Assembly (NCBI GenBank): GCA_026388255.1
Contig: JAPLKC010000085.1
Span: 1 to 64,000, forward strand
Origin: Pseudomonadota bacterium
GTDB lineage: Bacteria; Desulfobacterota; Syntrophorhabdia; Syntrophorhabdales; Syntrophorhabdaceae
Reading direction: 5' to 3'
DNA length: 64,000 bases
Below the pieces are notes generated by a model. The model worked only from the letters and a program-made list of their open reading frames with translations. It had not been told where the DNA came from and searched no databases. Below, in pieces: positions 21,147 to 50,273 of this stretch. How positions within the stretch are numbered: position 1 is the first letter of the stretch; the number at the start of each line of letters is the position of its first letter. A program made the translations under genes and the position numbers.

Positions 21147-21371
21147 AGAACCTTCTTATTTTGCCTTTCTGCACTCCATAAAAAACATTATTAAAAAGGT
21201 TTCCATACTTGCTTGCACTGTGCAAGCAAAATACATCTAATTGTTCAAACCAAAGCCTGTATTGGCTTTACAGAGATTTAGCTCTTTGCTCTCAATGTGA
21301 GAGCAAACACTACAGACACAGTGTCTGTAATCGCACAAAATGATATGAAATCGATACTTTATTATCATCCG
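21147..21371. other. Four-hairpin element, copy 1
   Basis: Non-coding element homologous to 22633-22863. It holds four successive inverted repeats: P1 TTGCTTGCAC/GTGCAAGCAA (21209-21229), P2 AAAGCC/GGCTTT with loop TGTATT (21252-21269), P3 TTTGCTCTCA/TGAGAGCAAA (21285-21307), and P4 TACAGACAC/GTGTCTGTA (21311-21329). It begins immediately after an attC on the minus strand. A 43-codon minus-strand Cys-containing frame (21237-21368) crosses it, but the same frame is interrupted by stops in copy 2, so conservation is at the level of structure. RNA or single-strand DNA function is inferred. Confidence 0.75.
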
Positions 21372-21372
21372 G

Positions 21373-21436
21373 TTCCAACGCCAGCGTTAGCCAGAGGCAG
21401 GTTTTATTGCCGATTGTCTGCAACCGATGGTTGGGC
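21373..21436 (-). other. attC site of cassette A
   Basis: On the minus strand R'' is GCCCAAC and R' is GTTGGAA. The interior pairs as GTT-CAGA-GGCA against TGCC-TCTG-TAAC with unpaired bases, the usual attC bottom-strand fold. It lies about 90 bases after the stop of the cassette A gene. Confidence 0.7.
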
Positions 21437-21524
21437 GGGTTCTCTTTTGTAAGTTTTTTGTATCAATAAAACCTCTGTTTCCAAAAGTTATTTAGTTTTT
21501 AAAGGATGTCCCCTTATCCCTGGG

Positions 21525-22415
21525 TTACGGGTTGCTCCTTACAAGCTGCTGCGCCTCCGTACAGGCTGTACCCGGGTTTCTTTCAATCAACTTCGATACT
21601 ATAGAAACATTCTTCTCTCTTGTTTTTTCATTCTCCCTCAGAGCATTGATCCAATTGGCCTCAAGTTCCCGTATGCTGATCCCGAACACGTCCTGCCATG
21701 GCCTATCCTTCTCCTGGGAGAGTCGTTGTAGCTGCTTTATCTTGTTGATTCCATAGATTTTATACAAATAATTTCCAAAAGACCCCGTTTCAGCATATGC
21801 CTTGTGTTGTTTGGCTTTATCAAGAATCGAAAGTTTGCCGCCCCCGGCGTCTTTCATGCCCCATGACTCATGATCAGGTCCCAATTCATTTAGGGGGATG
21901 TATGATTTCGTTTCCAGAAGAGCCAACACCCATTCGTCACTGCCGAATCCACACATAGGAAAGGTTAACGGATTCCCGACTTTCGCTTCTGTAAGAATAC
22001 CCATCATGTTGCGAATCAATTTATCCTTTTGTGGAAATACCGCGCTTGTAAGCTTGTGCGCCATCATTTGCGGCGATCCTTCAGAACTGAAGACCCGAAC
22101 GATGCGTATACGTTCACCATCCTTGTTTTCCCAGTAAAAGACACTCGAATAGACATCCCTGCGTGGTACATCGAAAATGACCTGTATCTTCCCGAATCGG
22201 TCTATTCCGGAATCGGCAGACCAGAATGCAAGAATGCGCTCCAACATTGCTTGCGCTTGATCGGCCAGGCTTTTCAGTTGATCATTCGACAATTTGCCGG
22301 TGGCATCACTAATAATGAGGTGCTTGGTTTCTATGATTGGGCTTGATGCCTGTGATAATCCAGCCACCAATATACCGGCCAAAAAGATTGATAATACAAT
22401 AACTCTTTTGATCAT
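21525..22415 (-). CDS. Cassette A: secreted protein resembling an inactive MA-clan peptidase domain
   Basis: A 296-residue protein with a clear signal peptide (cleavage near SQASS). The C-terminal part (SFGNYLYKIYGINKIKQL, then DVFGISIRELEANWINAL) resembles the end of gluzincin-type peptidase MA-like domains, but no HExxH zinc motif is visible where one would be expected (MAHKLTSAVF), so catalysis is doubtful. It has a strong AGGAGG site and sits between two attC sites as a classic one-gene cassette. It probably acts in the periplasm or outside the cell; function unknown. Confidence 0.7.
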   Translation of the reverse strand: MIKRVIVLSIFLAGILVAGLSQASSPIIETKHLIISDATGKLSNDQLKSLADQAQAMLERILAFWSADSGIDRFGKIQVIFDVPRRDVYSSVFYWENKDGERIRIVRVFSSEGSPQMMAHKLTSAVFPQKDKLIRNMMGILTEAKVGNPLTFPMCGFGSDEWVLALLETKSYIPLNELGPDHESWGMKDAGGGKLSILDKAKQHKAYAETGSFGNYLYKIYGINKIKQLQRLSQEKDRPWQDVFGISIRELEANWINALRENEKTREKNVSIVSKLIERNPGTACTEAQQLVRSNP

Positions 22416-22461
22416 CGGCTTCTTTCCTCCTTCTTTTGTTATCGCGCTGCCGGGCCTTGAC

Positions 22462-22525
22462 GCCTAACGCCAGGATCAACCAGAGGCCGGCTTTATGGCC
22501 GATTGGCTCCGGTGAATCGTTGGAA
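22462..22525 (-). other. attC site of the non-coding hairpin cassette
   Basis: On the minus strand R'' is TTCCAAC and R' is GTTAGGC. The interior forms an imperfect stem (GAT...GAGGCCGGC against GGCCGA...CTC...ATC on the plus strand) around a TTTAT loop. R'' is the exact complement of the GTTGGAA at which this cassette begins (22866-22872). Confidence 0.75.
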
Positions 22526-22865
22526 CTATTTTTTGCCTTTATCGGCTTTTCCATGTTTTTGTTTATTATAGCTTCTATCCTGTCTTTTGTCTTTATTCTT
22601 TTCTAAAATCTTATGGAGAAGAGAAGCCAGCTATTTTAAAACCTTCTTTTTCAGCCTTTATGTACTTCATATAATACATTTATCAAGACATTTATACGTT
22701 TTCTAACACAGTGTTAGAAAAATATACTTAATTGCCCAAACCTAAGCCTGTATTGGCTTAGCTAAGATTTTAAATTCAGTAGCAACATTTGCTACCAATG
22801 TTGTAGACACATTGTCTACAAAGTCTCATTATTGAAGATTTATGACTGTTTATCATTTTTTTAGG
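22526..22865. other. Non-coding cassette with four-hairpin element, copy 2 (22633-22863)
   Basis: This cassette body of about 340 bases has no supported gene. Its first two thirds on the minus strand hold copy 2 of the hairpin element: P1 TTTTCTAACAC/GTGTTAGAAAA (22699-22721), P2 CTAAGCC/GGCTTAG with loop TGTATT (22742-22761), P3 GTAGCAA/TTGCTAC (22779-22795), and P4 TTGTAGACA/TGTCTACAA (22801-22821). Order, spacing and P2 loop match copy 1 while stem sequences differ with pairing kept. Confidence 0.78.
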
Positions 22866-22926
22866 TTCCAACACGCGGGTCAGCGAGACGCGCTTCGTGC
22901 AGGTTCGCTGCAAGCCGTTGTTAGCG
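22866..22926 (-). other. attC site of cassette B
   Basis: On the minus strand R'' is CGCTAAC and R' is GTTGGAA. The interior stem pairs CGG and CAGCGA with TCGCTG and CCG, around a variable terminal region. The cassette B stop codon lies four bases before R''. Confidence 0.8.
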
Positions 22927-22927
22927 G

Positions 22928-23389
22928 TTAATTTGTTTTTAATTTTACCCTTATATAACGTTTTCCGTTGAATTTCCAGAGACTTTCCTGTGACCAACCG
23001 GCAGTGGAAGCTTCAAAGGCAATATCCGGCATTTTCTTGATTTTCGATCTTTTTATTTTCATACAGTATCCTCCGTCAGAAAGAACAACGGAATAAGAAT
23101 CTCTTTTTGGCTGAAGCACCCATATGGTACAAAGCGCATTGCCACAACCGCATCCGTCGGCAGTAGTAACAAACAGGTCTTTGGACTTACCGTCGCCGTC
23201 AAGATTAATTGGCTTGCCCAAGAATCTGCATGTCTTCCAGTCAGGATTTCTTTCACTCGACAGGATGGCTCGCACAGCATTCTCTGGTACCGGCTTCAAA
23301 TCCTGGTCTTCAATGCAGAATTCCTCGGCATTGCATACGTTCAGAAAAACAAATGTCAGAAATAGTACAATAATAATCGACTTCATCAT
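22928..23389 (-). CDS. Cassette B: small secreted Cys-containing protein
   Basis: About 153 residues with a signal peptide (MMKSIIIVLFLTFVFLNVCNAEE). The mature part contains LDGDGKSKDLFVTTADGCGCGNALC, resembling a calcium-loop or FG-GAP-like stretch with several Cys, then a strand-rich WVLQPKRDSYSVVLSDGGYC segment. I do not recognise a named family. The frame extends upstream to 23464, but those residues are translated attC DNA, so the start is placed at 23389 or 23386, after AAAGGAA. It is a typical single-gene cassette. Confidence 0.7.
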   Translation of the reverse strand: MMKSIIIVLFLTFVFLNVCNAEEFCIEDQDLKPVPENAVRAILSSERNPDWKTCRFLGKPINLDGDGKSKDLFVTTADGCGCGNALCTIWVLQPKRDSYSVVLSDGGYCMKIKRSKIKKMPDIAFEASTAGWSQESLWKFNGKRYIRVKLKTN

Positions 23390-25830: not shown

Positions 25831-26503
25831 ACCTATTCTCTCGCAGAGTTCACAGGGTACGCAGAGAAAGAGGATATACTTGTAAATTTTACCCGCAGGG
25901 TGTGCGGGTTGCCGGAATGAATCATTCTCTCTATTCCGGCAAAAGTTATCTCAACTCCGCGATCTCTGCGTACTCGAACGACCGTAAGGGAGTGGGCGTG
26001 AGGGAAAAGAATCAAAAGCATTGTCTCTCGCAGAGTTCACAGAGTACGCAGAGAAAGACGAGATATGCTTGTGGCCATAATTGCGAGAAAGCTCAATTCT
26101 GTCCACATTCCATGCCCTTGTCAGGGCAGAAATAAACCCGTATTTTCCATTAGGATAAATATCGGTGTCTGGTTATCCTTGGCATTGGGGAATTAATAAT
26201 CAATTAAACCGCCCGAATTACTGCACGGTAGTGAGCGTGAGGGAAAAGAATCAAAGGCATTGTCTCTCGCAGAGTTCACAGAGTACGCAGAGAAAGGCAG
26301 GTATATCTGTGAGCAGCATCGAGGACTACCTGATCCTGCTCACACACTACGCCCCTTCGGGGCAGGGGCATAGATAAACAATAATCACGCACCGACAGGT
26401 GCCGTGAGTTTACCCTGATATGGGCATTCTCTCAAATCAGGGTAAAAAACTATTTTAACTCTGTGATCTCTGCGTACTCGAACGACCGCAAGGGAGTGGG
26501 CGA
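25831..26503. repeat. Irregular CTCTGCG/CGCAGAG repeat family
   Basis: Three direct copies of CTCTCGCAGAGTTCACAG followed by a/ggTACGCAGAGAAAG start near 25833, 26024 and 26263. The last two share a longer preceding block (AAAGAATCAAA, then GCATTGT). Two copies of an opposing block, CTCTGCGTACTCGAACGACC then AAGGGAGTGGGCG, lie near 25965 and 26468. Because CTCTGCGTACTC complements GAGTACGCAGAG, direct and inverted copies could pair over hundreds of bases. Spacing is irregular, so this is not a CRISPR. Confidence 0.75.
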
Positions 26504-26755
26504 GAGGAATAAGAATTAAGGGAATGCTCACTTACTCACAGGCAAAAGGCCGATCTGACGAGATATGAGATGAGACTCAAAAACCTGCCGGAGGAAATTG
26601 CTCTCACAGTGAAAGCAATTGTGGAAATCCGTGAAACAGTTGCACGGATTTAGGAAATCTCCGTAAAAGCAATGCAGACGCTGCTTCGTACGATTCAGCC
26701 AAAAAATAACTGAGTCGATGAATCCGGTTTTCACTGAGAATACAAAAGGGGTTAG

Positions 26756-31871: not shown

Positions 31872-32615
31872 ATGAAAAAACTTGTCCTTGTACGACATGG
31901 AGAAAGTGTCTGGAACATGGAGAACCGTTTCACCGGTTGGACCGATGTGCCGCTCTCAGAAAAAGGTACAGAGGAAGCAATTCAGGCCGGACGTATACTT
32001 AAAAAAGAGGGGTATGTTTTTGATGTGGCATTTACATCAGTGCTGAAGCGGGCGATAAAAACCCTCTGGATCGTACTTGAAGAAATGGATCTTATGTGGA
32101 TTCCCATTTATAATAGCTGGCGGATCAATGAGCGTCATTACGGGGCGCTGCAAGGTCTTAATAAAGCCGAAATGGTCGAACAGCACGGGATGGAGCAGGT
32201 CCTTCTCTGGCGCCGCAGTTACGATATCCGCCCTCCGGCGCTCACACCGGATGATCCGCGCTACAATGGCAAGAATCCCATGTATACCGGTTTAAAACCC
32301 GAGGAGATACCTTTCACAGAATGTTTGAAGGATGCTGTTGAACGTTTTATTCCTTTTTGGGAGGGCACTGTAGCACCGGCTGTCTCAGGGGGCAGACATG
32401 TGGTTATCTGTGCCCACGGGAACAGTCTCCGTGCCCTTGTAAAGTATCTGGATGATGTACCGGATGATGAGATTACTTCCCTCAATATCCCTACAGGAAT
32501 ACCCCTTGTATACGAGCTTACAGATGACCTTACGCCGATCAGGAGCTATTACCTGGGAGACCAGGAGGCGGTAAAACATGCGATGCAATCTGTAGAAGAC
32601 CAATTAAAGAAATAA
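31872..32615 (+). CDS. gpmA: 2,3-bisphosphoglycerate-dependent phosphoglycerate mutase
   Basis: A 247-residue histidine-phosphatase-fold enzyme interconverting 3- and 2-phosphoglycerate. The phosphohistidine motif [10 protein letters not shown] is at the N-terminus; [26 protein letters not shown] with the catalytic Glu, and [12 protein letters not shown] with the second His follow. It complements the gapA-pgk-tpiA operon at 15-18 kb. The ATG at 31872 follows GAGGAGG; upstream in-frame codons are rejected. Confidence 0.95.
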
Positions 32616-32776
32616 AAGAGTAAAATAAAGTTGATTTTGCAATTTCCCTGTGCGATATTATTAAGCGAAGTTTCGGAAGCACCTGTTGTTTTGGCCGCAA
32701 ATTGCCTTTGATTTTTTGTAGTCACCCACAACACAGTTCCGTATTCTTCAATATTATTCAAGGAGGGTTTAATCCT

Positions 32777-32977
32777 ATGGTAAAAGGGACTGTTAAGTGG
32801 TTCAACGAGTCAAAAGGTTTTGGTTTTATAACTGGTGAAGATGGAAATGATGTTTTCGTACATTATTCAGCCATCCAGGACAGTGGTTTCAAATCACTTT
32901 CTGAAGGTCAGGAAGTGACATTTGAAGTTGTCAGCGGTCCGAAGGGGCCAGCAGCGGCAAACGTAGTAAAACTCTAA
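32777..32977 (+). CDS. Cold-shock-type nucleic-acid-binding protein
   Basis: A 66-residue CspA-family OB-fold protein. [18 protein letters not shown] contains RNP1 (KGFGFI) and DVFVHYSAI contains RNP2. It binds single-stranded RNA or DNA and melts structure. The ATG follows AAGGAGG. The roughly 160-base leader from gpmA could be a regulated 5' UTR, as in other csp genes, but no specific element is recognised. Confidence 0.94.
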
Positions 32978-32985
32978 GCCAGCCA

Positions 32986-33013
32986 AGCAGGCCCGGATTC
33001 CTCCGGGTCTGCT
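32986..33013 (+). terminator. Hairpin after the cold-shock gene
   Basis: AGCAGGCCCGGA (32986-32997) pairs with TCCGGGTCTGCT (33002-33013), with one G-T wobble and a 4-base loop. No long T-tract follows, so termination strength is uncertain. Confidence 0.55.
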
Positions 33014-33077
33014 CAATAATATACCCTGCAAAGTTTGAATAAGGTTTTTGTCTTTGTGTAATATAATACTACCTTGT

Positions 33078-49354: not shown

Positions 49355-50273
49355 ATGGCAACAAAAAAGACAACCGTAAATCCTGAATTTCTGTATATCT
49401 CCGTAGACAAGATTATAGTGTTGGAACAGGTGAGATCGAGTATTAATACTGAAACAGACTCATTTAAATCACTCGTGCAGTCAATTAAAGACAAAGGCAT
49501 CTTAGAACCGCTTATCGTAACCGCACAGAATGACGGAACATATTTACTTATCTGCGGGGAGAGACGTCTCGTTGCAGCCCGGCAACTCGGACTTGAATCC
49601 GTACCGGTGAGAGTTATTGAAGCAGGCAAAGAGTTAGGGGACACCATAGCCCTTCAACTTACAGAGAACCTCTAACGGGAGGACTTGAATCCCATAGATC
49701 AGGCTAAAGGAATACTCTCATTTATTCAGGCGAAACATCCTGACAAGGGGTATGGTATGGACGGGGTTATGAGTGAATTAGTAATGTACAATCGGAGGCC
49801 CGAAGACCTACCTGAGGAAATTGCTACAACGTTTGTAGCAATTTCCAAAATTGCTGCAAAGTCAATATCTACGCTGTTTAACATAATTTCACTTTTAAAA
49901 CTTTCTCCCGAGATTCAGGCCGAAATTCAGGCAGGAAATCTCCCCGTTTCTCAGGGTTATCTCTTTGCTGCAAACCTTGATTGTCCAGATATTCACCGAC
50001 ATTATAAAAACACCAGTGACCTATACAACTTTAGAGAGCAGACTCACAGCATACAAAAAAGTAAAACCTGACCCGAATAATACAAAACCCGTATCCGTGA
50101 AGAAACAGGTTAAAGGTCTTATATCAATGAAGACAACCTTTGAGACGGGCCTTGGAACTTATTTAAGGGAAGATATTGAAAAGTTTCTTTATGAACTACA
50201 GGTTTTCTGTGATTTTGTGCAACAACAGGCGCCAAAGGCTCCATACGGCAAGAAAAGACCACCACAAGTGTAA
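49355..50273 (+). pseudogene. Decayed ParB/Spo0J-like protein
   Basis: A ParB N-terminal nuclease/CTPase-like domain is readable at 49355-49675: ISVDKIIVLEQVRSS, then SIKDKGILEPLIV and CGERRLVAARQLGLESVPVRVI, ending QLTENL. A TAA interrupts where ParB proteins normally read ENLqREDLNPIDQA, and translation resumes in the same frame (REDLNPIDQAKGILSFI) with a HTH-like middle part. A frameshift near 50000 moves the rest (TTLESRLTAYKKV) to another frame, ending at 50273. No parA is nearby, so it is an orphan from a plasmid, phage or island. Confidence 0.75.

Follow-up and report, generated by a model that had tools for sequence, protein, structure and literature searches.

Palindromes that track recognition-helix residues in ParB-like genes suggest operator arrays in gene-less integron cassettes

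What keeps the stems of a non-coding element paired while their sequence changes from copy to copy? The window, the whole stretch of 64,000 nucleotides analysed here, raises this question with two segments, 21147–21371 (copy 1) and 22633–22863 (copy 2), in each of which four inverted repeats follow one another. The original prediction held that the two segments are homologous, and a minus-strand alignment bears this out over the full length of both copies; the order of the blocks and all of the inverted repeats that it quoted were recovered in a check of the sequence. It further attributed the paired changes in the stems to selection on structure in RNA or single-stranded DNA. The minus strand is taken here as the natural reading direction, and the hairpins originally labeled P4, P3, P2, and P1 are accordingly named H1, H2, H3, and H4.

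The covariance-model search of bacterial genomes that had been proposed as a check was carried out and extends the element far beyond two copies. In the source genome (G000), blastn returned 17 matches to copy 1, and a covariance model built from 11 element copies identified 22 strong copies there and 16 in a congener (G001). Another genus of the family added 7 and 2 in two of its species, so that about 47 strong copies are spread over four related draft genomes. A second model, built from all 47 copies and searched against the order and 395 sampled genomes from the phylum, revealed no further genome above E 1e-6. The exact element pattern occurred once among 85,000 named genomes, in a match without real covariance-model support, and was absent from viral contigs. 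As had been anticipated, the element does not belong to a known RNA family, there being no Rfam 15 match in the region. Elsewhere in the window, 32599–33016 on the plus strand matches the cspA RNA thermoregulator family with a score of 78.1, against a gathering threshold of 78.

Individual copies show features of their own. One (L012 3300–3500, G000:C80:95299) has its H4 region repeated by an internal duplication of 36 bp. Two others, L097 1168–1300 in G000:C97 and L076 3364–3496 in G001:C40, lie upstream of what is apparently one CGGC-domain gene shared by two species; they differ at H1, H2, and H3, H2 is palindromic in both, and they are possibly an orthologous pair. For the non-cassette copies at G000:C83, no orthologous flanks were found in the congener. 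A link between the element and a Y1 transposase (RAYT) was considered and set aside as not general, the transposase being present in few copies, some of which adjoin elements. At L085 3227–4900 (G016:C105), two element copies flank a gene for a 321-aa RAYT-like Y1 transposase.

Across the 47 copies, 91.5% of stem cells are paired. Two-sided changes are found in 234 cells, compared to 72 ± 7 after shuffling and 26–47 when the partners are slid; the covariation score of 0.418 drops to 0.141 with shuffling and to 0.08 or less with sliding. This signal is located in H1, H2, and H4, each of which is 91–96% paired. H3 (21252–21269 in copy 1, an inverted repeat in DNA homologous to ParB recognition-helix codons, and 22743–22760 in copy 2, both on the minus strand) has a conserved sequence; because it is only 80% paired and almost devoid of two-sided change, covariation is unsupported there. 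The claim that the stems changed together thus holds for P1, P3, and P4, far above chance, and fails for P2, which is not a covarying helix. The element had also been predicted to be non-coding, in agreement with the absence of a conserved reading frame. A peptide-coding element was considered and rejected: frame +1 has a protein-like look (..ITDTVSVAFAPTVGAKSEISVKPIQALVW..), which is explained by ParB-like ancestry of the element, but stops occur in all frames and codon periodicity is absent.

A structured non-coding RNA or single-stranded DNA, in which H1, H2, and H4 are kept by selection on folding, is a rival reading of such covariation across 47 copies. Each window copy folds strongly on the minus strand (z of −4.8 relative to shuffles), and the three-base centers of the palindromes could serve as loops. 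However, copy 1 folds equally strongly on the plus strand, and no conserved promoter was seen before H1 in the aligned upstream sequences. The mismatches point in the same direction. Selection on folding on either strand would unbalance G-T against A-C mismatches, and the balance in H1 (13 of each) and H2 (12 and 11) therefore argues against RNA. H4 does lean toward G-T (10 versus 2), as the folding reading would have it; summed over H1, H2, H4, and the palindromes in protein genes described below (9 and 6), the counts are 44 and 32, a slight excess that comes mainly from H4. The tolerance of G-U wobbles on a transcribed strand that characterizes structured non-coding RNA was not observed.

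Several of the weak covariance-model matches fall in or beside genes for ParB-like proteins, which indicates that these matches are not noise. The proteins carry ParB_N and HTH_ParB domains (Pfam), as well as GERR and ENLQREDLNP motifs that, judging by sequence only, would bind CTP. Rough and probably low counts, with 57 candidates scored per genome, give at least 59, 47, 58, and 59 ParB-like matches in the four element-bearing genomes; there are 14 and 6 in two other genomes, and 1–4, the level of ordinary ParB, in the remaining relatives, most of which have 1–2. Almost all of the elements (46 of 47) have a same-strand match in DNA coding for the ParB-like helix-turn-helix, with a best E of 9e-15, compared to none in a reversed-sequence control. 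Judged by this homology, the element is derived from ParB-like helix-turn-helix coding DNA.

The window itself contains two sequences of this family, both on the plus strand. A broken ParB-like gene (49355–50270), with one TAA and one frame break, still has a perfect palindrome with 14-bp arms (49816–49846, half-site ACAAC) together with Ser171 and Asn175 (L046 numbering, used throughout). A ParB-like helix-turn-helix gene fragment (26591–26700) contains two slightly degraded palindromes, one at 26597–26619 and one following it. An AlphaFold single-sequence model of the window ParB fragment reached a pLDDT of 59, too weak to use. The region 25880–26700 is rich in repeats of the CTCTGCGTACTC and GCAGAG types, which also occur in the flanks of ParB-like genes, and matches many places in related genomes. 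The possibility that the ParB-like unit is a long transposon was rejected: homology stops about 100–300 bp upstream of the start codon and, at the other end, near the stop codon, and there are no shared flanks.

The ParB-like genes contain palindromes of the same kind as H1, H2, and H4. About 100 ParB-like genes and gene fragments have, always at the same codon position, a hypervariable odd palindrome of the form NNN-AC-n-GT-N'N'N', with arms of about 9–11 bp; in the ParB-like genes first examined it was nearly perfect in 41 of 41, with widely varying sequence. The gene palindromes are 94.7% paired, and their covariation score of 0.742 stands against 0.19 after shuffling and no more than 0.18 after sliding. 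Base 3 of the half-site is almost restricted to A or C (133 of 137 element palindromes, 118 of 120 gene palindromes), and nearly all half-site triplets of the element also occur among the genes. These triplets are GAC in H1; CCA, GAA, CTC, GCA, and ACA in H2; and TTC, TGC, TCC, CTC, and AAC in H4. The order of classes along the array is constant, with a GAC type at H1 (39 of 44 readable copies), mostly NNA at H2, and NNC at H4 (47 of 47, mostly T-first), and the linkers between the palindromes are conserved in sequence. In the window, the operator-like palindromes, all on the minus strand, have half-sites GACAC (H1, 21311–21329), CTCA (H2, 21285–21307), and TGCAC (H4, 21209–21229) in copy 1, and GACA (H1, 22801–22821), GCAA (H2, 22779–22795), and AACAC (H4, 22699–22721) in copy 2.

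Within the genes, the bases of the palindrome are coupled to particular amino acids of the encoded protein. Mutual information with the palindrome class is highest at residues 171 and 175 (z of 11.3 and 8.0, with a median of 0.5). Among 107 unique segments, A at base 3 occurs with Asn175 in 45 of 53 and C with Arg175 in 46 of 52 (91 of 107 by the summary count), and G at base 1 occurs with Lys or Arg171 in 53 of 58; at the same base, A is found mostly with Met, C with Asn, Gln, or Thr, and T with Pro, Ser, or Thr. The two rules combine freely: written as base 1.base 3 and residue 171/residue 175, A.A corresponds to Met or Ser/Asn, A.C to Met/Arg, C.A to Thr or Asn/Asn, C.C to Gln/Arg, G.A to Arg or Lys/Asn, G.C to Arg/Arg, and T.C to Pro/Arg. 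A map of the associations between bases and residues is approximately diagonal and falls to about zero beyond residue 177 (near zero at 178–189). In protein–DNA chemistry, arginine reads guanine and asparagine reads adenine. A hint that the DNA base is read, rather than the residue that it encodes, comes from Ala157, where the choice of codon tracks residue 175 although the amino acid is unchanged (16 of 20 for GCA with Asn175, 2 of 3 for GCC with Arg175, small numbers).

Base and residue also change together in evolution. On a tree of 81 proteins from which the palindrome and recognition segment had been left out, there were at least 26 changes of residue 175 and 27 of base 3. All 14 supported independent pairs agree for residue 175 and base 3 (p = 1.2e-4), and all 11 independent pairs for residue 171 and base 1 (p = 9.8e-4), counts of independent events that could be inflated if short modules, exchanged between paralogs, copied base and residue together; the palindrome lies about 40 bp from the recognition-helix codons. 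The segment can be aligned gap-free with ParB proteins of solved structure (weakly in the second domain). With the GKS motif as anchor, residues 175 and 170 fall on N178 and R173 of Caulobacter ParB, both of which contact parS (PMC7383237). Taken as a comparison of sequences, the base–residue coupling is a protein–DNA recognition code.

This coupling also weighs against a folded RNA or single strand. The identical type of palindrome stands in protein genes, where it is coupled to recognition-helix residues, and an RNA structure would neither limit base 3 to A or C nor couple a base to a protein residue. Selection on RNA or single-stranded DNA structure, as originally proposed, is therefore not favored, given gene palindromes that co-vary with the recognition helix in the sense of Arg with G and Asn with A, and we regard it as unlikely.

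The palindromes might instead be unselected, with replication template switching perfecting quasi-palindromes and the elements representing ParB-like fragments that decay in cassettes. Arms with three-base centers are good substrates for template-switch correction, and the palindromes described here have this form; moreover, the elements are homologous to gene fragments, and the fragment at 26591–26700 is nearly, not fully, palindromic. Nevertheless, template switching predicts neither the base–residue code nor a base 3 restricted to A or C, and it accounts neither for the fixed half-site class of H1 and H4 nor for the conservation of the linkers, which makes it a very unlikely explanation. 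Highly improbable, finally, is a spread of selfish, palindromic in-frame elements of the PARCEL or Rickettsia type to ParB-like genes and intergenic DNA: those elements likewise are variable, palindromic, translated in places, and dispersed in coding and non-coding DNA (PMC2996958), but the palindromes here always occupy one homologous position in one DNA-binding gene family, have bases coupled to recognition residues, are not associated with membrane repeat proteins, and, given the gapless alignment to an ordinary ParB helix-turn-helix, are no insertion. No in-frame palindromes were seen in unrelated proteins of the window and selected loci, and domain scans gave only ParB-family domains, without the tandem 25-aa DUF285/TIGR02167 repeats of PARCEL.

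The explanation that we consider probable is that H1, H2, and H4 are parS/OB-like operators for different ParB/KorB-like paralogs and that the element is a non-coding array of the three. ParB-like dimers would bind the three palindromes as double-stranded sites. With a dimer as the binding partner, both half-sites would have to change together, producing compensatory changes, so that the dyad symmetry of operators for dimers of differing specificity would explain the paired changes without RNA. Since the order of classes is constant along the array, each element would address three specificity classes. Consistent with this model, the palindromes have dyad symmetry, the same genome encodes proteins with ParB_N and HTH_ParB domains as candidate partners, and, in the gene palindromes, the bases of the site track the residues of the recognition helix. 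As a counterpoint, the palindromes of the element could have been inherited as leftovers of gene fragments.

The operator model has further steps. Every ParB-like gene would carry its own matching palindrome within its helix-turn-helix codons, and the element would have arisen from such segments. An operator located within the codons of the DNA-binding domain would allow protein and target to diversify as one unit. Such self-encoded specificity, in which the gene holds its own operator and the cassette arrays provide a combinatorial regulatory or anchoring layer for dozens of orthogonal clamps, has in our judgment slightly better than even chances of being correct. The ParB-like proteins would load as clamps and slide in a CTP-dependent manner, and the bound or sliding clamps may modulate the next cassette genes, in either direction, via a promoter about 100–200 bp away.

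In many copies, the array appears to fill a gene-less integron cassette upstream of a conserved outward promoter. An attC-like end, GTTGGAAC (at least 7 of 8 bases), lies at −43 to −49 before H1 in 22 copies. After H4, AAGACA-N17-TATAAT, a putative promoter, is found in about 16 copies, mostly at about +113, and TTCCAAC (R''), the start of the next attC-like site, mostly near +160, also in about 16 copies. About half of the copies do not have a clean attC/promoter layout; these remaining copies have a GGGGACATCC-type leader instead or occur in other contexts. The attC-like sites were assigned by motifs and spacing, and for the sites in the window single-stranded folding energies alone are not significant. 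A GGGGACATCC...TTAAATAAC leader/trailer, possibly a REP/RAYT-type repeat, recurs beside attC-like sites and elements, at about 21440–21510 in the window and upstream of many copies.

In the window, where these features are on the minus strand, the copy 1 cassette is bounded by an attC-like site assigned by motif (21372–21450), with R' GTTGGAAC at 21372–21379, −47 of H1. The copy 2 cassette has the attC-like/array/promoter/attC-like form: an attC-like site upstream (22866–22940, GTTGGAAC at −49 of H1), a sigma70-like promoter AAGACA-N17-TATAAT predicted to point outward into the next cassette gene (22565–22593), and a closing attC-like site (22462–22527, R'' TTCCAAC at about +160 and R' GTTAGGCG). 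Directly downstream of copy 2 lies a 296-aa cassette gene (21525–22415) with no match in Pfam or NCBIfam. Its 84% orthologue in the congener also lies directly downstream of an element copy, and the elements preceding the two genes are of different sequence types. Genes near element copies include those of toxin–antitoxin systems (PemK/MazF-like, BrnT). The source genome has two integron integrase genes (G000:C45:2251-3193 and G000:C53:12258-13195; L099–L103), both broken, one by a TAA and the other by being split over three frames; the genome's own integrase may therefore no longer move cassettes.

Sites inside parB genes are known, as in Bacillus subtilis, where a parS site lies within spo0J. 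The proposed operators are reminiscent of the ParB–parS and Noc–NBS systems (PMC7383237) in combining a ParB_N and HTH_ParB protein with a palindromic site, and a half-site TTCAC occurs as in parS. Positions 173–178 of the Caulobacter ParB recognition helix contact DNA and decide specificity (PMC7383237). In contrast to those systems, there are dozens of paralogs per genome, the palindrome is odd, with one extra base pair at the center compared to parS, the half-site bases are free to vary, with residues 171 and 175 matching them, and the site is located inside the helix-turn-helix codons. KorB of plasmid RK2 exerts long-range silencing from OB operators 45 to more than 1000 bp upstream of promoters (PMC11790492). 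The element would share with KorB–OB a ParB-family clamp and predicted operators about 100–200 bp upstream of a promoter, and differs in its chromosomal integron cassettes, in three different predicted operators per array, and in that no KorA partner was identified. Gene-less integron cassettes with promoters that drive neighboring genes have been described in Vibrio (PMC11014356); the present candidate cassettes would likewise lie between attC sites, with a predicted promoter toward the next cassette, whereas they form a recurrent family with a conserved operator-like array in a non-Vibrio host.

A limited literature search found no site in helix-turn-helix codons that diversifies in step with the recognition helix among dozens of paralogs. 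The operator array extends a known kind, the ParB operator; self-encoding, if correct, would be of a new kind. It is important to note that stem covariation among paralogous copies need not indicate RNA structure. If the model is correct, a single genome offers dozens of naturally diverged pairs of ParB-like proteins and sites, with a readable code from residue 171 to base 1 and from residue 175 to base 3, and the joint change of DNA-binding specificity and target, an open question, would become directly testable. The same pairs would provide many orthogonal clamp–operator combinations for genome labeling or long-range silencing. More generally, such arrays would give recurrent gene-less integron cassettes a use.
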